A stretch of DNA of 20,053 nucleotides from a virus, in the IMG/VR virus record IMGVR_UViG_3300006990_003156, positions 1 through 20,053 of that record; one strand, given 5' to 3'. A program made the translations under genes and the position numbers. This document shows, piece after piece, positions 1 to 19,795 of the stretch (the stretch's first letter is position 1; each line of letters starts with the position of its first letter). The notes under the pieces are model-generated. The model saw only the letters and a program-made list of their open reading frames with translations, searched no databases and was not told the DNA's origin.

Positions 1-868
1 CCAAATTAGACTTAATCGCTTGTGCCACTTCTGGTGTTGCTTCTTTTATTCGTGCCGCTCGTTCCGCTGACTCTCTGGTACTTTCTACTGCTCGTTCTGC
101 TGCCCGCGGTATTCTTTCTGCTAGGTCTGTTGATTTCTGCACCAAGCCTTGTACAGGTGTTGATTGTGGAAATGCTTTTACTGCTTCTGTTGATTTCTTA
201 GCGGCTTCTATTGTTGGTCCTTTTACCGACTCAATTCCACTACCCACTTTTCGGAGTGTTTGTTTTGTAGCTTGTTGTGCTGCTCCTGCCACTTCTCCTG
301 TAACTTTTGCCCCAGGGTACAGCTCTATAAACCCAAGTAGTGCTTCTAGGTCTTGTGATTTTTCTGGGTTTTCAACTTTGTATTGCTCGTATCTATCGCT
401 TACACCGTCTGCGTATTCTTTAATCATCTCTAAACCTTTCCGCCCTACAGGTGTTTCAATTAGCTCTTTTGCTTTCTTTTTTATAGGTTCTGAAATTTGA
501 TCTGGAACGGCTGCATCTGCAAGTGTTCCGAACACCACCTCAGCCCCCCCGCTAAGTAAATTCCCGGCAAGCCTGTATGCAGTTTTCACTTTCCCCGCTT
601 TTCCTTGCTCTAGTGAACCTGCTGCTTTCACTATCTTTGGGGTAATACGTTCTGCTGCCCCCTCAAATCTATCTTTTGCTCTGCCGCTAAAGTCTTTTCG
701 TTTCGGAATGACACGCTTTTGTGTACGTTCGGCGACAATCTCCTCGTATCTAGCTCTTATTTGTTCGGGAGTAGCCTTTGGTTTTTGTGTGTTTGTAACA
801 GTAGAAGCCGCTTGCCTTTCTGCAAGTATTTCTTCATACCTTTTTTTTATTTCTTGAGGTGTTGGCAT
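1..868 (-). CDS. Alanine-rich helical virion protein, 3' end cut by window edge
   Basis: The frame opens at the ATG at 868 and stays open to base 1, giving at least 289 residues; the C-terminus lies outside the window. I read the translation directly. The N-terminus has an imperfect tandem repeat, PTPQEIKKRYEEILAER followed by ATPEQIRARYEEIVAER. After it comes a long Lys/Glu/Ala-rich helical region with many short amphipathic segments (for example around STDLAERIPRAAERAVEST) and no Cys. It starts 4 nt after the stop of the M23 protein gene, in the same operon. Long Ala/Glu-rich proteins at this place in short-tailed phages are often internal virion or DNA-ejection proteins, and a tape-measure-like protein is the alternative. 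Function is inferred from position and composition only; no catalytic motif is visible in the part present. Confidence 0.75.
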   Translation of the reverse strand, partial: MPTPQEIKKRYEEILAERQAASTVTNTQKPKATPEQIRARYEEIVAERTQKRVIPKRKDFSGRAKDRFEGAAERITPKIVKAAGSLEQGKAGKVKTAYRLAGNLLSGGAEVVFGTLADAAVPDQISEPIKKKAKELIETPVGRKGLEMIKEYADGVSDRYEQYKVENPEKSQDLEALLGFIELYPGAKVTGEVAGAAQQATKQTLRKVGSGIESVKGPTIEAAKKSTEAVKAFPQSTPVQGLVQKSTDLAERIPRAAERAVESTRESAERAARIKEATPEVAQAIKSNL

Positions 869-872
869 ATTT

Positions 873-3005
873 TTACGCTAGTGCTATTAGTCTTTGTTCA
901 ATTTCTCTTGGTGACATGTATGTGCCGTCTGGTCTTTTCACTGTAAGGTCTAAATGGCTTCCGTCTCCACCCTTACCTGGGACTGTTGTCCCTGTGTTAC
1001 CACCTGTCCCTAGTAGTTGCCCTCTTTTTATTTGTTGACCTGGTTGTACATCCATACCGTCTAAATGACTATACCAAACGCTGTTTCCATTTGTGTCCGT
1101 AACTCTAACTTGGTTCCCGAAACCTCCGTTTGTCCCTACAAATTCCACTACTCCATCTACATCGCTTTTTATCGGATCACCTATCTTCAAGTCAATGTCC
1201 AATCCGTGTGCCCAAATTGGGCTGCCATCCTCTCTGAAGCTCCCATAAGCTGTGATGTTCCCTAGTGATAATGAGCCTGTTGTAGCTTGTTCTGTGTCGC
1301 TACCAACTGAGTTAAAACGTGATGTTCCCGCCCCTAGTGCCTGCTCTGCCTCTTGCCGGGTAATCCCCATTTCTTGCATTAGTTGATCTACTGCGTCTTG
1401 GTCTATCACAGGTGTACTTGTTGTCCCTAGACTACCTATTTCTGTTTCAATTCCTGCTTTGAGTCTTTCTGCTGAGTCCTTGATTAATTCCAATTGTTCG
1501 TTAAAGAACTTCTCAGTTGTCTTAAAGCCTGGGTTTACTTTGCTTCTACCTTCCCCAAGGTCTGTGATTTTTAAGTTTGACAAAGCACTCGCAGCCCCTT
1601 GTAAGATAGCAAGTTCTTTTTCACTTAACGCCCCAAGTGTTCCACCCCTTGATTTCAACTCTGTTAGGGTGTCTAGTGTTTCTTGGCTTAACAGCTGATC
1701 TATTAGTGCTATTGCATTGGTTCTTTTAGCGTTTAAGTCTTCCCCTAGTGAGAATCTTGCTGCTGAGTTCGGACCAACGGCTGACTTAAAACCAGGGGAT
1801 GATGTGATTGAGTCGATCAGGTTGATTTTCTCTGTTAGTGTTTCTGCCTGTGCTGACAACTTGCTAGCATCTTCGTTTTCTCCTCCTACGGTTAGCCCTG
1901 ACGCTTCGCCGTCACCCCCCCCTGGGATTACCATTTCCCATTCTTTTTTTGTAGGGTCCCACTGCCAGATTGCCCCATCTTTGGCTGTTCTTGTCTCTGG
2001 TTTTGTAGGGTCTGACGGTTTTGCTGGTGCTGTAACAAATTCGCCTGTTGCTGGGTTGTAAATGCTGTCTCCCGGGGATACTTTGATTGACTTAGCAGCT
2101 TCTGTCGTTTCAGTGTTTTTCTCTTTGAATTTGTTGTATTGTCCTTTCAATATGTCTACGTCTACACCTAGTTCTTCTGCCATTTGAGAAAACGTATCAT
2201 CACCTATCTCTACACCGCTATAAAACGCATTTTCGATAGCGTCTGATACACGCAAGGCTTTACGCTCTCTTTGCCCTGTCAAGAAAGTTACATATTCTTC
2301 TGCTCCTTGTTTTTGTGCTGCTGTTTTAGCGGCTAGTTCTGCTGCTACTGAGTTTCTTACTTGCGACATAATAGCTTGTAGCTCTGCCCTTTGTTCTGCT
2401 TGGATTGCGTCCATAACTGCTTTATTCATGCCATGTACTGCTTCTGTTTGCGATGCCCCGAAGTCTGAACCGACTAGACCACGTCGGCTTTGGATTGCTG
2501 TACTACTTCCAATACGTCCACGTCCTCGAATGTTTTCTGCTGCTTTCTTTTCTGCGTACACCCTATTTAGGGCATCAATTTCAGCTTGGAAACGGTCCAT
2601 CGTATTTTCCCTGATTTTTGCTTCGTCTGGTTCTTCTTGTTGTTTTTTTAGGATGTTTGCAAGGTTTTGTTCAGCACTGGCGATTCCTTCGTCTGCCTGT
2701 GGAACAAACCCACTAAACAGCTCCCCGACAGTTGGTTCTTGTCCTTCTGTACGTCCAATTTCTTCTTGGCTTGCAGAATTAGGGTCCACAAAAGAAGGCA
2801 TCCCTCCTGCGGCGTCCTCTTGTGCTGCTTGGGTTCTTGCGGATTCACCTAAATTGAACTGTTGTGTGTCGCTAACAAACCTATCTTGCCCGTTAACGGA
2901 GGAAATAGACCCGATACCTTGAGCAACGTTATGCTCTGCAATCCATCTGAGTCTTTCCGGGTCTGTTATCTTTCCGGTTGTTTTGAATGTTGATGCTCTT
3001 GCCAT
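873..3005 (-). CDS. Virion protein with C-terminal M23-like peptidase domain
   Basis: A 710-residue protein. Residues 1 to about 575 are mostly helical and linker-like: an acidic, Gln-rich N-terminus, a likely coiled coil around 100-250, and a Gly/Pro-rich linker near 330-370. Residues about 580-710 look like a LytM/M23 zinc metallopeptidase, a fold that cuts peptidoglycan cross-links. Visible elements are AHGLDID (H600, D603), a GGFGNQV strand, WYSH (H647) and GSHLDLTV (H684, D686). M23 enzymes normally read HxxxD and HxH; here the first spacing is one residue short and the last His is Asp, so zinc binding or activity may differ. The likely role is local wall digestion during DNA entry, carried in the virion. 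It follows the fibre gene and precedes another helical virion protein. The start has no SD, and TAATAATATG precedes it. Confidence 0.85.
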   Translation of the reverse strand: MARASTFKTTGKITDPERLRWIAEHNVAQGIGSISSVNGQDRFVSDTQQFNLGESARTQAAQEDAAGGMPSFVDPNSASQEEIGRTEGQEPTVGELFSGFVPQADEGIASAEQNLANILKKQQEEPDEAKIRENTMDRFQAEIDALNRVYAEKKAAENIRGRGRIGSSTAIQSRRGLVGSDFGASQTEAVHGMNKAVMDAIQAEQRAELQAIMSQVRNSVAAELAAKTAAQKQGAEEYVTFLTGQRERKALRVSDAIENAFYSGVEIGDDTFSQMAEELGVDVDILKGQYNKFKEKNTETTEAAKSIKVSPGDSIYNPATGEFVTAPAKPSDPTKPETRTAKDGAIWQWDPTKKEWEMVIPGGGDGEASGLTVGGENEDASKLSAQAETLTEKINLIDSITSSPGFKSAVGPNSAARFSLGEDLNAKRTNAIALIDQLLSQETLDTLTELKSRGGTLGALSEKELAILQGAASALSNLKITDLGEGRSKVNPGFKTTEKFFNEQLELIKDSAERLKAGIETEIGSLGTTSTPVIDQDAVDQLMQEMGITRQEAEQALGAGTSRFNSVGSDTEQATTGSLSLGNITAYGSFREDGSPIWAHGLDIDLKIGDPIKSDVDGVVEFVGTNGGFGNQVRVTDTNGNSVWYSHLDGMDVQPGQQIKRGQLLGTGGNTGTTVPGKGGDGSHLDLTVKRPDGTYMSPREIEQRLIALA

Positions 3006-3102: not shown

Positions 3103-4575
3103 TTATGAGTCATTTACTGTACCTGGGGTAATACTTGGAATTTTAATATATCCGAGTTGGAAGTTGCGTACTTCACCACCACCTGTTCCATTCGTCCGAG
3201 AGTACAGCTGAACCAGATCACCTGTTTCCACTGAGATATCTTCTGTGTAGGTTTGGAATGTACCCGAAGTGGTGGTACGTTCAGTACCTACAGCCACGCC
3301 GTTAATATAAATCCGTCCGTCACGACTATTCGCACCACCAGAGGAATCTCTCATTTGAAAAGTTGTATGTACTGTTCCTGCCACCTCGTTGTATTGGATT
3401 TCTTTATATTTAGTGTAAGTGGAACCTGATACAGAATCTGTAGTGTTGGCTTCATCAACTATGTTTCCGTCAAATGGTATGGTTACATACTTGCTTGATG
3501 CCATGTCGTTCGTTGACGCTACTAGTAATTGTGTTTCGCTTACTGCAACCCCAACTAGTACAGCTTCAGTCCCAACTGTTGTCCCGATAGTACCTACAGC
3601 ATCTTGTACATAGTAGTATTCACCTTCTGACAACCCTGTGAACCCAGCAACAATATTAGACACTTGTACTGTAATTGGGTTTCCGTCTGTAGAGTCTGTA
3701 GTTGCAAAACCGATAAATCGAAGGGTATTCAGATCATTGGCATCACATGCGTATACCTCATTGTCTGAAGTATCTTGGTATACAGGTACAGGCAGTGTTG
3801 CCCCGCTGATTGTTTCACCGGCGTTCAGAGAAATTGTTGATAGTATTTTGCTCGAAAGCCAATCATCGGCAATCTTTCCGCTACCATCTGCCCTTACTAC
3901 CGCATTCGCTGTACTAGCCGTAGCTGTATCATCTTCTGTTACAAAAGTATTACTTGAACTTGGTGTTCCTGCACTACCTGCCAAGGCATCCACCATTCCT
4001 GATGTTACACTAGATGTATCTACGGTTGGTACACGGTTATCGTTATCCCCTACCGCAATAGGCTCTGTAGCACTTACTGGTGCTACACTCATCTTTGAGA
4101 TACCCTTAACTGTTGTGCTTGCGTCTGCTCCACCTGCTATAGCTACGCCGTCAACATATGCTTTTGTAGCAATTTGGTTTGCTGAACCAATTGTTGCTGT
4201 ACCGTCATATTTCAGCGGTGTATCTGCATCTAGATTCGTAGTACCGTCTAGTAGGTCGTTAATATATTTAATGTGTGTAAAGTTTGTAATTTTTACAGAA
4301 GAACCTACACGATGTTCCCGTACTGTACCGCTAGACTGCACACCTTGCCGTGTAACGCTTTTAATTGCTGATAACGATGTACCACTCAAAGTACAAATGA
4401 TATGCTCTTTTTGGGCATTATCCCCGTTTAGTGTGAATGCGTACTCACCGCTCGGCAATGCTACGCCGTCATCGTCTGTTGCTGATTGTAGTGTTGCAGT
4501 TGTACCACCTACCGCAATTTTGGTTGCTAGTGTTGTTGTAAAATCTGCTACTATTACTGCTAGTTTAGTTGCCAT
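3103..4575 (-). CDS. Tail fibre / receptor-binding protein
   Basis: A 490-residue, Ser/Thr/Ala/Gly-rich, beta-rich protein with the layered make-up of a trimeric phage fibre. Residues 1-100 form a compact module (TTLATKIAVGGTTATLQS, then EHRVGSSVKITNF) likely to attach it to the tail. Near 130 there is the ATKAYVDG motif common in fibre proteins. Residues about 150-245 are low-complexity shaft-like sequence (KGISKMSVAPVSATEPIAVG). Residues about 245-490 are beta-strand-rich and could include a jelly-roll-type sugar-binding head, with GRIYINGVAVG and VETGDLVQLYSR. It probably binds the host surface. It lies directly after the propeller-like tail gene and before the M23 virion protein, the usual order of neck, fibre, then ejection proteins. 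No chaperone or glycosidase motif was seen. Confidence 0.8.
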   Translation of the reverse strand: MATKLAVIVADFTTTLATKIAVGGTTATLQSATDDDGVALPSGEYAFTLNGDNAQKEHIICTLSGTSLSAIKSVTRQGVQSSGTVREHRVGSSVKITNFTHIKYINDLLDGTTNLDADTPLKYDGTATIGSANQIATKAYVDGVAIAGGADASTTVKGISKMSVAPVSATEPIAVGDNDNRVPTVDTSSVTSGMVDALAGSAGTPSSSNTFVTEDDTATASTANAVVRADGSGKIADDWLSSKILSTISLNAGETISGATLPVPVYQDTSDNEVYACDANDLNTLRFIGFATTDSTDGNPITVQVSNIVAGFTGLSEGEYYYVQDAVGTIGTTVGTEAVLVGVAVSETQLLVASTNDMASSKYVTIPFDGNIVDEANTTDSVSGSTYTKYKEIQYNEVAGTVHTTFQMRDSSGGANSRDGRIYINGVAVGTERTTTSGTFQTYTEDISVETGDLVQLYSRTNGTGGGEVRNFQLGYIKIPSITPGTVNDS

Positions 4576-15798: not shown

Positions 15799-17172
15799 CT
15801 ATTTATTGACTAACTTCTCTACGATCGCTCTGATTACATTCACAGTAACTGCGTTCCCTAGTGTTTTGTACCGTTGAGTATCGCTTATTGCGACTAAATC
15901 CCCAGAGAAAACTTTAATCAGATCGTCCAGCTCTTTATCACCCGACATCTCTCCCCGTCCATTGACACCATCTTTTGTCCAGCCGTCTGGAAATCCTTGT
16001 AGTCTTTCGCACTCTGTAGGGGTTAGTCTTCTAATCCTGGACTTGTCTGAAAGCAGGCTGTCTTTTGCTATTGCTTGACTAGTTATTGTACCAATTATAT
16101 GGCTGTCTTTTGGTACTAGTTCTCTGTGCCCACCTGAGAATGGAGTTAAGTCACGTCCGTTTTTCTGTGCTTCTGCTCTTGCTCTTTTTCCCTTCTCTGT
16201 TCTACGCCATTGCATAGGCTTTACATCAGCATGTTTACATTTAGCTTTTTCTGTGCCTCCACCGAGAGGAAATACTTCGGGTCTACTTGTTCCTCTAAGA
16301 TGTCCGATAATGAACACTCGCTCCCTGTTCTGTGGGACTCCGTGATTTTTGCTGTTAAGCACTTGCCATTGACAGTCATACCCCAATTCATCAAGCGTTG
16401 AGATGACGGTACGGAACGTGTTTCCTTGGTCGTGAGATAAAAGCCCTTTGACGTTCTCAAGGAGTAAAAGGCGTGGTTGTTTTTCCCTAACAATCCGAGC
16501 GATTTCAAAGAACATTGTACCTCTCGTATCATCGAAGCCTCCTCGCTTTCCTGCGATAGAGAAGGATTGGCAAGGAAATCCTCCGACAAAGAGGTCAAAG
16601 TCTGGCAGGCTTGTTTCGTCAATTTTTGTAATGTCTCCGAAATTAGTGTGTTTTGGGAAATGTTTTTCATAAATTGAGGTTGCATATTTATCTATCTCAC
16701 TAAATCCTACACATATGGGGACATTCTCCATATCTCCCTCTTGCATTATTGCAGTTATAGCACAGGATTTCGTATTTTGTTTTATCGTTTTCTTTGAGTG
16801 CAAGTTGGTATCCGTATCCTGTTCCGTATTTTTTTCTGTCCTTGTGTCCATCCTGTCGTATGTGTTCAAGTGTGAGGAACCGCTCCTCAGATTCTCCGCA
16901 ACAGGCACACTCTCTCCCGTACACTTCAAGGACTCTTTGTCTCCGCAATGCGTTGTGTTTCCTCCCCATTGCTTTGCTTTTTTCTGGGTTTCTTTTTCTC
17001 CACTCAAATTGGTATTTTCTAAGACATTCTTTACATTTTGAGAAGTTGTTTTTGTAAAATTCATTCCCTGTTTTGCAGTATTTACATTTTGGCATAATTT
17101 TAGTGAGTCATAAGCTTGTTGTATTCCTAGGGCAAAACCACCCACTCCTGAAAAGGCATCAAAGTACTTCAT
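15799..17172 (-). CDS. C5 cytosine DNA methyltransferase with a nested HNH insertion
   Basis: A 457-residue protein carrying the standard C5-MTase motifs: I (FSGVGG, 7-12), II-like GFSEIDKYA (156-164), IV with the catalytic Cys C201 in FPCQSF, VI ENV (239-241), VIII QNRER (281-285), IX RLTPTECERLQGFP, and X TLGNAV (437-442). It would methylate cytosine at C5, probably to protect phage DNA. Between motifs I and II about 130 residues (24-150) are Thr/Asn/Lys-rich and disordered-looking. These are the MTase-frame translation of an HNH gene inserted there in another frame; without them the protein is about 330 residues, normal for the family. Start: the upstream ATG in the repeat element is out of frame here, so 17172 is the true start. 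The stop is TAG at 15799. Confidence 0.88.
   Translation of the reverse strand: MKYFDAFSGVGGFALGIQQAYDSLKLCQNVNTAKQGMNFTKTTSQNVKNVLENTNLSGEKETQKKAKQWGGNTTHCGDKESLKCTGESVPVAENLRSGSSHLNTYDRMDTRTEKNTEQDTDTNLHSKKTIKQNTKSCAITAIMQEGDMENVPICVGFSEIDKYATSIYEKHFPKHTNFGDITKIDETSLPDFDLFVGGFPCQSFSIAGKRGGFDDTRGTMFFEIARIVREKQPRLLLLENVKGLLSHDQGNTFRTVISTLDELGYDCQWQVLNSKNHGVPQNRERVFIIGHLRGTSRPEVFPLGGGTEKAKCKHADVKPMQWRRTEKGKRARAEAQKNGRDLTPFSGGHRELVPKDSHIIGTITSQAIAKDSLLSDKSRIRRLTPTECERLQGFPDGWTKDGVNGRGEMSGDKELDDLIKVFSGDLVAISDTQRYKTLGNAVTVNVIRAIVEKLVNK
16700..17095 (-). CDS. HNH endonuclease nested in the methyltransferase gene
   Basis: A complete 131-residue gene running in the same direction as the methyltransferase but in the +2 frame, and wholly inside it (codons 26-158). 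It starts with a zinc-binding CKYC...CKEC segment (residues 4-7 and 20-23). It then shows an HNH-type core: YGRECACCGES, TLEHIRQDG with the catalytic-type His, ILCYNCNNARG, and CPH at the end. This is the pattern of phage HNH homing endonucleases, which nick DNA at target genes to spread themselves. Its stop TAG lies inside the motif II codons of the methyltransferase (GFSE). The coordinates suggest a free-standing homing gene that landed in the MTase. Start context AAAATTATGCC. Confidence 0.85.
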   Translation of the reverse strand: MPKCKYCKTGNEFYKNNFSKCKECLRKYQFEWRKRNPEKSKAMGRKHNALRRQRVLEVYGRECACCGESEERFLTLEHIRQDGHKDRKKYGTGYGYQLALKENDKTKYEILCYNCNNARGRYGECPHMCRI

Positions 17173-17192
17173 ATATAAAACATTTAATTATT
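17170..17192 (-). repeat. Start element copy 1 (before the C5 methyltransferase)
   Basis: The 3' part of this copy reads as TAATTAAATGTTTTAT followed by ATATG on the minus strand. It matches the three other copies except for a 2-nt AT insertion. The insertion puts the first ATG out of frame: it opens ATG-TTT-TAT-ATA-TGA, whose stop overlaps the real start as ATGA. Confidence 0.7.
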
Positions 17193-17216
17193 GTTGTTTT
17201 CTTCATAAAACACTAC

Positions 17217-17229
17217 TATCTATAATATA
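17217..17229. repeat. Second copy of 13-nt AT-rich sequence TATCTATAATATA
   Basis: Exact copy of 15482-15494. Here it lies between the longer beta-class methyltransferase and the C5 methyltransferase, about 45 nt before the C5 start. It might be a promoter -10 region (minus strand TATTATAG) or a common binding site. Short and AT-rich, so chance is possible. Confidence 0.35.
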
Positions 17230-17236
17230 CTTTAAC

Positions 17237-17269
17237 TATTTATTGACTGTTAAAAATCCTAGCCTCTGC
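17237..17269. repeat. 33-nt direct repeat at methyltransferase 3' end (copy 1)
   Basis: Identical to 19109-19141 over 33 nt, and over 39 nt with one mismatch. In both places it encodes the final residues AEARIFNSQ and the stop of a beta-class methyltransferase. The first 11 nt (TATTTATTGAC) plus an adjacent C also occur at the end of the C5 methyltransferase (15799-15810). Confidence 0.75.
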
Positions 17270-18442
17270 AATCTTGCAATACTCAGCGTCTAGGTCTATC
17301 CCTATGAAGTCAAAGTTTTCTTTCTTACATGCTATTCCTGTTGAACCTGAACCCATAAACGGATCTAGTACTGTACCGCCTTTTGGTGTTACTAGGCGTA
17401 CGAGGTACTGCATAAGTTTTACTGGTTTGACTGTTGGGTGCGAATTCTTTTCTGGTTGTTTTGGCTTATTCTCACCTTTTAATGATGCACCACCTAATCC
17501 CATCACCTTACCAGTATTAGCCATCATAGAACCGCCAGTTTTCTCCTCAAATCCCTCCAGCCCCCCATTCCTTTCTTTCTTACTTGCTTTGGCTACATAA
17601 AAATACCTTGCCTTATCTCCCATTCCTGCTGTAGCTTCTTCACTTCCGTCCAAAATTAAATTTGCTGGGAATCTGCCTTGGGTTTTCATTTTCTCAATCG
17701 CTGTATTTTGTTTATCTAAAATAGACTGCTTATCTTTCATCCAAGGTCTTGAGAAACCTTTTCCATCTACCTTATTTTCAGGCATTGAACCAAACGCTTT
17801 TATATTTGACATATCTTCATTACTCTCCACCCTACACTCATCTATATTTATCCCACCAGTACCCCACTCCAACACGTTCTTTGCAATAGTCTTTTCTGAT
17901 AATGGTTTACGTGCTAGTACAATAGGTTCATTGCTTGGTTTAAGGGCTGTTCCCCAGCCTTCGTATGGTGAGTTTCCTTTGGTTATGTGCTTTTCTACAT
18001 TTGAAAAATCTGTTTTTAGCGTTCTCCCGTCCTGTTCTTTGAATTTTTGTAGAGCTTTGATTGCATTGATATTTTTCTTTCCTATAATCTCCCTCTCATT
18101 CCCCTGCAACTTATCAACCGCCTTACCTATATTATGACTTTTCGGAAATCCTGAGCCATATACCCAACTTACCATGTCTCGTATCTCAAATCCTGCGTCC
18201 TCAATCCGTACTGCCCCTCTGTGGTAGGTTCTAGTTCCAAAGAATGAAAGTAGGTGTCCGCCCGGTTTTAGCACTCGGTATACTTCTTTCCATAGTTCAG
18301 TAGTCGGAACATCATAGTCCCACTTCTTGCCCATGAATGAAAGTCCGTATGGTGGATCGCATACTACACTGTCCACGCTGTTTTCTGGTAGTTTTTGTAG
18401 TTCTACTAAACTATCTCCGTTGATTATCTGCATATAAAACAT
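17240..18442 (-). CDS. Beta-class N4/N6 amino DNA methyltransferase (long)
   Basis: A 400-residue methyltransferase for adenine N6 or cytosine N4. Motif order is IV first, then I, so it is beta-class (N6_N4_Mtase type). Catalytic motif DPPY is at 29-32 (DPPYGLSFMGKKWDYDV). The SAM-binding motif DPFMGSGST is at 360-368, near the C-terminus, followed by FIGIDLDAEYC. A long middle (about 100-310), rich in Lys and Gly and with GTGGINIDECRV, is the likely target-recognition region. The two possible starts are ATG-TTT-TAT-ATG; by comparison with the C5 copy I prefer the second (18433), giving 397 residues. It shares its last residues with the shorter beta-class enzyme at 19112. Probably protective modification. 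Confidence 0.88.
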   Translation of the reverse strand: MFYMQIINGDSLVELQKLPENSVDSVVCDPPYGLSFMGKKWDYDVPTTELWKEVYRVLKPGGHLLSFFGTRTYHRGAVRIEDAGFEIRDMVSWVYGSGFPKSHNIGKAVDKLQGNEREIIGKKNINAIKALQKFKEQDGRTLKTDFSNVEKHITKGNSPYEGWGTALKPSNEPIVLARKPLSEKTIAKNVLEWGTGGINIDECRVESNEDMSNIKAFGSMPENKVDGKGFSRPWMKDKQSILDKQNTAIEKMKTQGRFPANLILDGSEEATAGMGDKARYFYVAKASKKERNGGLEGFEEKTGGSMMANTGKVMGLGGASLKGENKPKQPEKNSHPTVKPVKLMQYLVRLVTPKGGTVLDPFMGSGSTGIACKKENFDFIGIDLDAEYCKIAEARIFNSQ

Positions 18443-18451
18443 TTAATTATT
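18431..18451 (-). repeat. Start element copy 2
   Basis: Contains TAATTAAATGTTTTATATG on the minus strand, with the methyltransferase start ATG at its end. Identical over 21 nt to copies 3 and 4. The flanking sequence on the upstream side differs, so this is a conserved initiation or expression element, not a leftover of one long duplication. Confidence 0.75.
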
Positions 18452-19103
18452 AAACCTCACTTATACGTACAATATGGTCGCAAAGCTCTTTTGGCATTGT
18501 ACCCCTACTTAGATAGTCCCTTTTGTGTACATATCCCCAATCGCCGTGTTTGTGAGTTCCCTTTTTACAGGTGTTTAGGAAGTTAGTTTTTTTGTGGTTT
18601 GTCCAAATGTCTGTTGGTTTCATGACATATACATCTTCAAAACCTTTCGCCGTGCCTTTGTTTCCGTATGAGCAGTATGTAACCGTATAGCGTTCTCTAT
18701 CTTTTACAAAGTCCATATGCCTCATTCTCCCCCTTGGGTTCTCTACGAAATAATACTTTGTACCTGCTTTCACCAAAGCGTCAATCAGTTTCCACATCTT
18801 TACGTTTACCACATCATCTTGTTTTGCCATTTCGGTCTTTGGTTGAAGCCCCTCTTTTACTGTTCTGTGCTTATGTGTTGCTATTGAATACGTTGTACAT
18901 TGTGGGGACGCCCAGACAACATCAGGCACACCGCCACACAATTTCACCACATCGCCCACCGTTAGTTCCGACACATCACATGTCAGGTCTGCGTTCACAT
19001 CCTCAGACCAGTCCACTGTAAAAGTCTCATGTCCTTTTTCTTTGAAAGACTTGGCAATATCACCATGTCCACTAAACAGCTCCAATACCTTCATATAAAA
19101 CAT
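18450..19103 (-). CDS. Small C5-methyltransferase-like protein with altered PC motif
   Basis: A 217-residue protein (214 if the second ATG at 19094 is used). The N-terminus MKVLELFSGHGDIAKSF is a SAM-binding motif I of C5 MTases. At 66-69 there is ASPQC (the PC loop normally reads PPCQ; here Pro-Gln-Cys), and 121-128 reads ENPRGRMR, the family's ENV position altered. It lacks the long C-terminal target domain and motifs IX and X, so it is half the usual length. Similar short Dcm-like proteins occur in phages, with unproven specificity. It may be catalytic with a shifted Cys, or act on another substrate. It sits in the methyltransferase array between two beta-class enzymes. Confidence 0.75.
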   Translation of the reverse strand: MFYMKVLELFSGHGDIAKSFKEKGHETFTVDWSEDVNADLTCDVSELTVGDVVKLCGGVPDVVWASPQCTTYSIATHKHRTVKEGLQPKTEMAKQDDVVNVKMWKLIDALVKAGTKYYFVENPRGRMRHMDFVKDRERYTVTYCSYGNKGTAKGFEDVYVMKPTDIWTNHKKTNFLNTCKKGTHKHGDWGYVHKRDYLSRGTMPKELCDHIVRISEV

Positions 19104-19112
19104 TTAATTATT
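19092..19112 (-). repeat. Start element copy 3
   Basis: Same 21-nt element as copies 2 and 4, ending in the start of the small C5-like gene. It overlaps the stop-proximal block of the upstream beta-class gene, so the two elements meet as TTTATTGAC adjoining ATTAATTAT on the plus strand. Confidence 0.75.
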
Positions 19113-19141
19113 TATTGACTGTTAAAAATCCTAGCCTCTGC
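19109..19141. repeat. 33-nt direct repeat at methyltransferase 3' end (copy 2)
   Basis: Same 33 nt as 17237-17269: codes the last residues AEARIFNSQ and the stop of the shorter beta-class enzyme. The two genes diverge sharply upstream of it, at DNA level, even though their proteins are similar in motif I. That argues for recent exchange or conversion at the gene ends. Confidence 0.75.
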
Positions 19142-19795
19142 GATTTTACAGTATTCAGCATTTAGTTCTATTCCGACAAACTTCCTACCTAGCTTTTTGC
19201 ACGCAACCCCCGTTGTACCACTCCCCATAAATGGGTCAATTATAATACAGTCTTTTGGGAGTATCTCTATTATTCTCTCCATAATCAATTTGGGCATTTG
19301 ACACACGTGAGCTGTTTTTTCTTTTGAAACATTTTTTACTTGCTGCACCTCCCACCAGTCATAAAGCCTTGCTCTCCTCCCTTGTTCTATAAGTTTCTTA
19401 ATACGTTTATCCTTTGGGTTTTTATATGGTTGCCCTGATTTTGTGAAGTCTGGCTTAACATTGAAAAAGGCAATGTCTCTGTGTTGTTTTGGTGTATTTG
19501 CGTTGTAAACCCAACTAACAACTTTTTCAGGAAACTCCCCAACCTGAAACGCAAATTTGTACAATTCTTCTGGATAATGGATAATAACTTTTTTGTTGTT
19601 ACCAAATATTTCTTTCAACCAAGTATAGTAATCCTCCTCTGACATTTTGTCCTTATATTCATTATAATGATACCCTACATTGAACGGGGGGTCTGATACA
19701 AAAATAACTTTTTCAAAGTCGATTTTACCTTTGAGTTTTTCAAGTTCGATTAGACAGTCTCCGTTTATGATAGTTACGTCTCTCATATAAAACAT
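19112..19795 (-). CDS. Beta-class N4/N6 amino DNA methyltransferase (short)
   Basis: A 227-residue enzyme (224 if the second ATG at 19786 is used). Motif IV is SDPPFN (35-39), and the SAM motif DPFMGSGTTG is at 187-196, followed by FVGIELNAEYC. It is therefore beta-class like its longer neighbour, but with a short, different target-recognition region (KIDFEKV to about 180). It would methylate adenine or cytosine amino groups in a specific sequence. Its 3' end is identical in DNA to the longer gene's. It follows a structured leader and is the first methyltransferase in the array. No matching restriction endonuclease gene is seen, so protection of phage DNA is the most likely role. Confidence 0.88.
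   Translation of the reverse strand: MFYMRDVTIINGDCLIELEKLKGKIDFEKVIFVSDPPFNVGYHYNEYKDKMSEEDYYTWLKEIFGNNKKVIIHYPEELYKFAFQVGEFPEKVVSWVYNANTPKQHRDIAFFNVKPDFTKSGQPYKNPKDKRIKKLIEQGRRARLYDWWEVQQVKNVSKEKTAHVCQMPKLIMERIIEILPKDCIIIDPFMGSGTTGVACKKLGRKFVGIELNAEYCKIAEARIFNSQ

Follow-up and report, generated by a model that had tools for sequence, protein, structure and literature searches.

The closest described relatives of the arrangement treated here come from mycobacteriophages. The ShiLan domain of a mycobacteriophage methylase was described as an HNH endonuclease gene read out of frame, within a host frame that is free of stop codons, and with a patchy distribution (Arsenault, Gosselin and Gogarten 2025, PMC11855218). 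Gp60 of Pacc40 is a second such case (PMC11855218), and gp54/gp55 of Applejack have been annotated likewise (PMC12613952). The 2025 description covers a few GC-rich mycobacteriophage genes and comes without a statistical test of selection on the open frame. Intrusions of another kind are the split genes, in which free-standing homing endonucleases interrupt a host gene, such as mobA in the topoisomerase gene of T4 and mobE in nrdA of Aeh1 (PMC2988022).

Here we describe an arrangement of the ShiLan type in a virus contig of 20,053 bases (the window, by which we mean the whole stretch of DNA analysed), where an HNH endonuclease gene lies inside a C5-cytosine DNA methyltransferase gene, both on the minus strand (Table 1). 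The original prediction had the HNH gene fully nested and out of frame, and every coordinate that was checked proved correct. The HNH gene indeed starts at codon 26 of the methyltransferase, the first base of its ATG being the third base of that codon, and its TAG falls within the codons of motif II (157/158). The methyltransferase frame is kept open as predicted, with all 457 codons intact and 0 host-frame stops. A gene identical to the window methyltransferase, without a single difference, is present in two further assemblies, and an assembly error is thus excluded as the source of the nesting.

Table 1. Features of the nested locus and of -10-like motifs in related loci; L-numbers denote related loci, and positions without an L-number are those of the window.
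Feature	Position	Strand	Remarks
C5-cytosine DNA methyltransferase ORF	15799..17172	(-)	457 codons, ATG, open through the insert
Methyltransferase N-terminal segment with motif I (MKYFDAFSGVGGFALGIQQAYDSLK), upstream of the insert	17098..17172	(-)	compared with insert-free homologues
Methyltransferase core downstream of the insert, from about PICVGFSEIDKYA to the C terminus; border approximate	15799..16722	(-)	used for the core comparison
Methyltransferase residues 42-144, predicted disordered loop from HNH DNA	16741..17049	(-)	pLDDT <50
Nested HNH endonuclease gene	16700..17095	(-)	131 codons, ATG; frame = methyltransferase +2
HNH stop TAG, straddling methyltransferase codons 157/158	16700..16702	(-)	Phe-Ser of GFSEID, motif II
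-10-like motif, L006	~2400..2424		
-10-like motif, L074	~450..472		
-10-like motif, L075	~2965..2986		

The outer ORF matches PF00145 in Pfam (E 1.4e-75) and carries the motifs FSGVGGF, GGFPCQS, ENV, QNRERV and GNAVTVNV; the presence of C5 motifs I, IV, VI, VIII and X together with the Pfam match identifies it as a C5 DNA methyltransferase. Its aligned core is 73-74% identical to the insert-free enzymes L004 and L038. Codon-position differences in the core are 0.26/0.14/0.49 (positions 1/2/3), and by this measure the core is conserved and under purifying selection. In the AlphaFold2 model (from an alignment of 40 rows) most of the core has a pLDDT above 90, against values below 50 for residues 42-144. 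The inner ORF matches phrog_2255 (HNH endonuclease, E 1.2e-11), which places it by sequence family among the HNH/His-Me finger nucleases; Endonuclease_7 of Pfam matches it only below its gathering cut-off. The CxxC pairs and H78 are conserved, and the AlphaFold2 model of the HNH protein is ordered (pLDDT 92.3). The top structural matches, on residues 44-131, are nearly all HNH nucleases, T4 endonuclease VII included, and they are weak (Z <=5.2), as are the Foldseek matches of the model (E >=0.33); a sequence search of the PDB gave no usable relative. Between the window and L074 the HNH genes differ by 0.18/0.20/0.47 at the three codon positions, and the HNH frame is by this measure under purifying selection.

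The methyltransferase is one of four DNA methyltransferase-like genes in a row on the minus strand (15799..19795), in the order C5, N4/N6, a short one matching a phage DNA methyltransferase PHROG, and N4/N6. The neighbouring N4/N6-type gene (17240..18442, minus strand) resembles the Applejack host protein (GSGFPKS...GTALKPS) and has no HNH there; it looks like an empty-site relative of a published host gene. About 80 bp of the window (17221..17299) are repeated at ~85% identity elsewhere in the same region (matching L002 763-840), near junctions of the neighbouring methyltransferase genes.

Relatives of the window HNH were collected by scans of viral contigs, using the HNH query, the motif CYNCNNA and a second alignment, and from one genome scan and annotated phage and plasmid matches, giving 91 distinct HNHs of the family in total. 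Eight lineages are nested in methyltransferase ORFs, all of them C5 by Pfam, and the host frame is HNH+1 in 8/8. The insertion lies in the loop between motifs I and II in the window and in L075 (of which L076 is a near-identical copy), between motifs II and III in L006 and L074 (the latter with the same sequence as L088, found in a contig binned as Scalindua), and between motifs III and IV in L110, L094, L114 and L091. A search that was blind to frame found matching methyltransferase sequence around the HNH only in these eight among the 91. The window is no isolated case, with seven more nested lineages at three C5-methyltransferase sites. The view that dual coding of an HNH gene inside a host gene is rare needs qualifying, since methylases of mycobacteriophages with the same arrangement were published in 2025 (PMC11855218; PMC12613952).

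Cultured phages and plasmids, when searched with the HNHs, yielded only more distant, mostly free-standing relatives. Free-standing members sit between nrdA and nrdB (ANB28), between polA and purA (MeganNoll) and in a tRNA array (Myrna), loci of the kind at which phage homing endonuclease genes are usually placed. The family shares with homing endonucleases a patchy distribution and relatives that are free-standing phage genes at varied loci, and the prediction of a homing-type HNH gene between motifs I and II is supported. The objection that HNH-free homologues might carry a similar segment holds in part: at the insert site of the window they do have a hydrophilic loop of very variable length, roughly 0-60 residues, which connects the helix following motif I to the strand that runs up to SEIDKYA. 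The HNH gene has thus either entered a loop that naturally tolerates changes in length or taken the place of part of it. Comparison with the homologues places the insertion in this variable motif I-II loop, though not with borders exact to the base. In several insert-free methyltransferases (L004, L008, L016, L027, L030 and others) the motif I-II loop shows a recurring hydrophilic pattern like GGxENTxxDEGQRLQxxEG...ERP, which is found across otherwise divergent enzymes.

Some of the nested loci have features of their own. In L075 (3893..4300; also in L076) a second, unrelated HNH gene of the HTH type (PF13392) lies downstream in the same methyltransferase and splits it into ORFs of 334 and 155 codons, so that the activity of this particular enzyme is doubtful; L075 and L076 differ by six substitutions within 19 bp (3667-3685) near this second gene. 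The motif IV block (FTIVTGGFPCQPFSHAGRRxGTAD) flanks the nested HNH of L091 on both sides (849..938 and 1404..1493). The two copies agree at only 57 of 90 bases and look like a duplication made at the insertion, perhaps when a divergent donor served for repair; in L091 the HNH+2 frame is open as well (475 codons). L110 carries an int-alpA RNA (2897..2961, minus strand; RF02996, 42.1 bits), a hint that the element is integrated or temperate.

The evolutionary histories of the two genes differ. The four clade-1 nested HNHs, which are those nearest the window, group with L078 (support 100/100), and their host methyltransferases are scattered among insert-free ones. Four changes are needed on the methyltransferase tree, a number that holds over the 5-95% range of bootstrap trees, and at least two of them are forced by well-supported branches; the placement of L075 in this tree is unsure because of its long branch. 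Nested HNHs that cluster while their hosts are scattered look as a mobile gene would.

Translation of the host frame would require the HNH gene to avoid those codon choices that put a stop into that frame. Synonymous choices of this stop-making kind are used at 0/55 places in the eight nested lineages versus 561/1259 in 83 free-standing relatives (Fisher p 2.3e-14). From each contig's codon usage 26.9 host-frame stops would be expected in the eight nested HNHs, and none is seen; for the window alone the expectation under its contig's own codon usage is 3.8, again with 0 seen (P(0) = 0.003). The same null predicts well how many of the free-standing relatives have no stop (3 seen versus 4.1 expected); their stops total 353 versus 277 expected. 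L078 is free-standing and groups within the nested clade, yet it has eight host-frame stops, and the +1 ORFs of the three free-standing genes that happen to have no +1 stop (L145, L205 and L183) contain no methyltransferase. In Applejack, where the host frame is HNH+2, it is the +2 frame that uses 0/43 hazards, versus 9/21 for the unused +1 frame. The avoided frame, on these counts, tracks the host frame and not composition.

It should be pointed out that being nested and having an open frame are not wholly independent, since it takes a long ORF to make nesting visible; this dependence was addressed by seeking flanking methyltransferase sequence regardless of frame. The peptide read in the host frame is in most pairs no more alike than the HNH frame forces it to be. 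The exceptions are the same-site pairs, window-L075 and L074-L006, which are more alike in the host frame than under the null, possibly because of a constraint beyond stop avoidance or simply because of more recent divergence. A constraint on the sequence of the read-through peptide was accordingly set aside as absent in most pairs and ambiguous in these two. That the open host frame is under selection is strongly supported by the codon counts, which makes dual coding the best reading of the locus.

As for the start of the inner gene, no Shine-Dalgarno sequence was found at the window HNH; this absence is uninformative, since other genes of the window phage also lack one and start after A/T-rich stretches, as the HNH gene does. 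Ribosome-binding sites inside the host gene are strong in L114 (AGGAGG before a GTG start), fair in L110, and weak in L074 and L094. Translation of the window HNH is plausible on such grounds. An extended -10-like motif, noticed by eye, lies just before the nested HNH start in three lineages, as TGnTATACT in L006 and L074 and as TGTGATAAT in L075. Its distance to the ATG, 6-8 bases, would suit a leaderless transcript.

We consider it highly probable that a homing-type HNH gene invaded a conserved gene without splicing and that both frames are used, one stretch of DNA giving two proteins. A small zinc-binding HNH gene, from a family resembling phage homing endonucleases, would have inserted into a variable loop of the C5 methyltransferase and would have brought no known splicing element with it. 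The nuclease would be translated in the HNH frame, from an internal start of its own; the methyltransferase frame would run through the same DNA, adding some 130 unstructured, hydrophilic residues to the loop. Variants of the insert with a host-frame stop would be removed by selection on the host gene, and the amino-acid sequence of the read-through segment would otherwise be little constrained. Presumably, the nuclease cuts those alleles of the methyltransferase that lack the insert, and repair would then copy its gene into them (homing); the gene could persist in the methyltransferase because the host frame reads through it. We infer that both proteins are translated, that the methyltransferase is active with its insert, and that the nuclease cleaves DNA and homes.

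The fate of the insert in the RNA or at the ribosome bears directly on this reading. The homing genes known to be nested mostly reside in introns or inteins, and translational bypassing has a precedent in T4 gene 60, so one could suppose that the insert is spliced out or skipped and that the open host frame is incidental. Such removal, however, gives no reason for the unused stop hazards, and there is almost no sequence besides the ORF. Rfam scans at gathering score found no intron in the window or the seven other nested loci, nor did a lax scan around the HNH find an intron family, and a group I or II intron thus finds no support in either kind of scan. An intein was likewise rejected: Pfam found no Hint domain in the methyltransferase ORF, the insert is predicted to be disordered, and a standard intein is ruled out because the nuclease is out of the host frame. 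The original prediction had spoken against both an intein and an obvious group I intron, and these results bear it out. As the avoided frame follows the host frame, splicing, bypassing and compositional accident are all argued against, and we regard removal of the insert as very unlikely. An HNH coding sequence of this kind might also simply have an open +1 frame by chance or composition, and the window HNH alone is indeed unremarkable when its own codons are shuffled (P(0) = 0.19). The nested codon set is itself skewed, however, the free-standing relatives have more stops than expected, and in Applejack it is a different frame, again that of the host, which is avoided. A purely compositional open frame was rejected on the strength of the free-standing relatives and Applejack, and the chance reading, already disfavoured by the eight-lineage test, is in our estimate exceedingly improbable.

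Two other readings accept the nesting and differ on what the genes do. The HNH protein could be the restriction enzyme cognate to the methyltransferase, nested for co-inheritance rather than as a homing endonuclease. It shares its broad fold with HNH restriction enzymes, for instance PacI (Z 2.8), and the plasmid relative L221 adjoins a DNA methyltransferase gene; but most of the free-standing relatives examined have nrdA/nrdB, polA, tRNAs or capsid genes as neighbours and no DNA methyltransferase adjacent, the insertion sites differ, and the HNH and methyltransferase trees disagree, unlike those of a co-evolving pair. Such a restriction-modification unit seems to us unlikely. That the methyltransferase is a dead remnant, the HNH alone being expressed, has some appeal in L075 with its second HNH gene, but the catalytic motifs are intact in the window, the core is under purifying selection, and stop avoidance would not last in a dead host gene; we hold this to be highly improbable. 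The invasion of a conserved gene by a homing-type gene, with both frames in use, is the reading we prefer.

Dual coding would then probably be a third route, next to introns and inteins and free of splicing, by which endonuclease genes reside in a conserved gene, one that arose several times independently (in C5 enzymes here and in N4/N6-type enzymes elsewhere), with selection purging only host-frame stops and the host enzyme working with a large, translated filler loop. The lower-GC, multi-site and multi-lineage cases answer whether the open host frame is selected, and they add a further methyltransferase class and a further HNH family to those known to have the arrangement, as judged against the open-licence PMC literature, beyond which further precedents may exist. 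Stop avoidance in the host frame offers a simple screen for more hidden nested genes, which are often dropped by annotation pipelines, and the locus lends itself well to experiments on the amount of foreign peptide that a loop in an enzyme can accommodate.

Among the known systems, intron- and intein-borne homing endonucleases likewise lie inside a conserved gene, the difference being that here no splicing element was found and the nuclease is out of the host frame. The mobA and mobE genes are likewise inserted in coding regions of functional importance and have no splicing element, but there the host gene is split into two polypeptides, whereas here the host frame is continuous. The likeness to ShiLan, Pacc40 and Applejack goes further: an out-of-frame HNH gene within that of a phage DNA methylase, a stop-free host frame, a read-through peptide without a recognisable fold, a patchy distribution, and no intron or intein found. 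The window has the stop-free host frame and the patchy distribution in the host gene family, and it is of the ShiLan type by arrangement. The differences lie in the parts. The host is PF01555 (N4/N6-type) in Applejack and Pacc40 and PF00145 (C5) here; the HNH PHROGs are 589 and 374 there and 2255 here; the phase is opposite in Applejack (host = HNH+2) and the same in Pacc40. Three insertion sites are used here, unlike the published mycobacteriophage cases, and there is no sign that the nested-C5 phages infect actinobacteria. The Applejack and Pacc40 HNHs, taken as proxies for the ShiLan HNH, gave no match to the profile of the window family and no significant similarity by blastp (E 0.34 or worse). 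Because these HNHs miss the profile and match other PHROGs best, and because their hosts are N4/N6-type, the window is most likely, by these sequence comparisons, an independent and convergent C5 variant of the ShiLan-type arrangement rather than a relative by descent.
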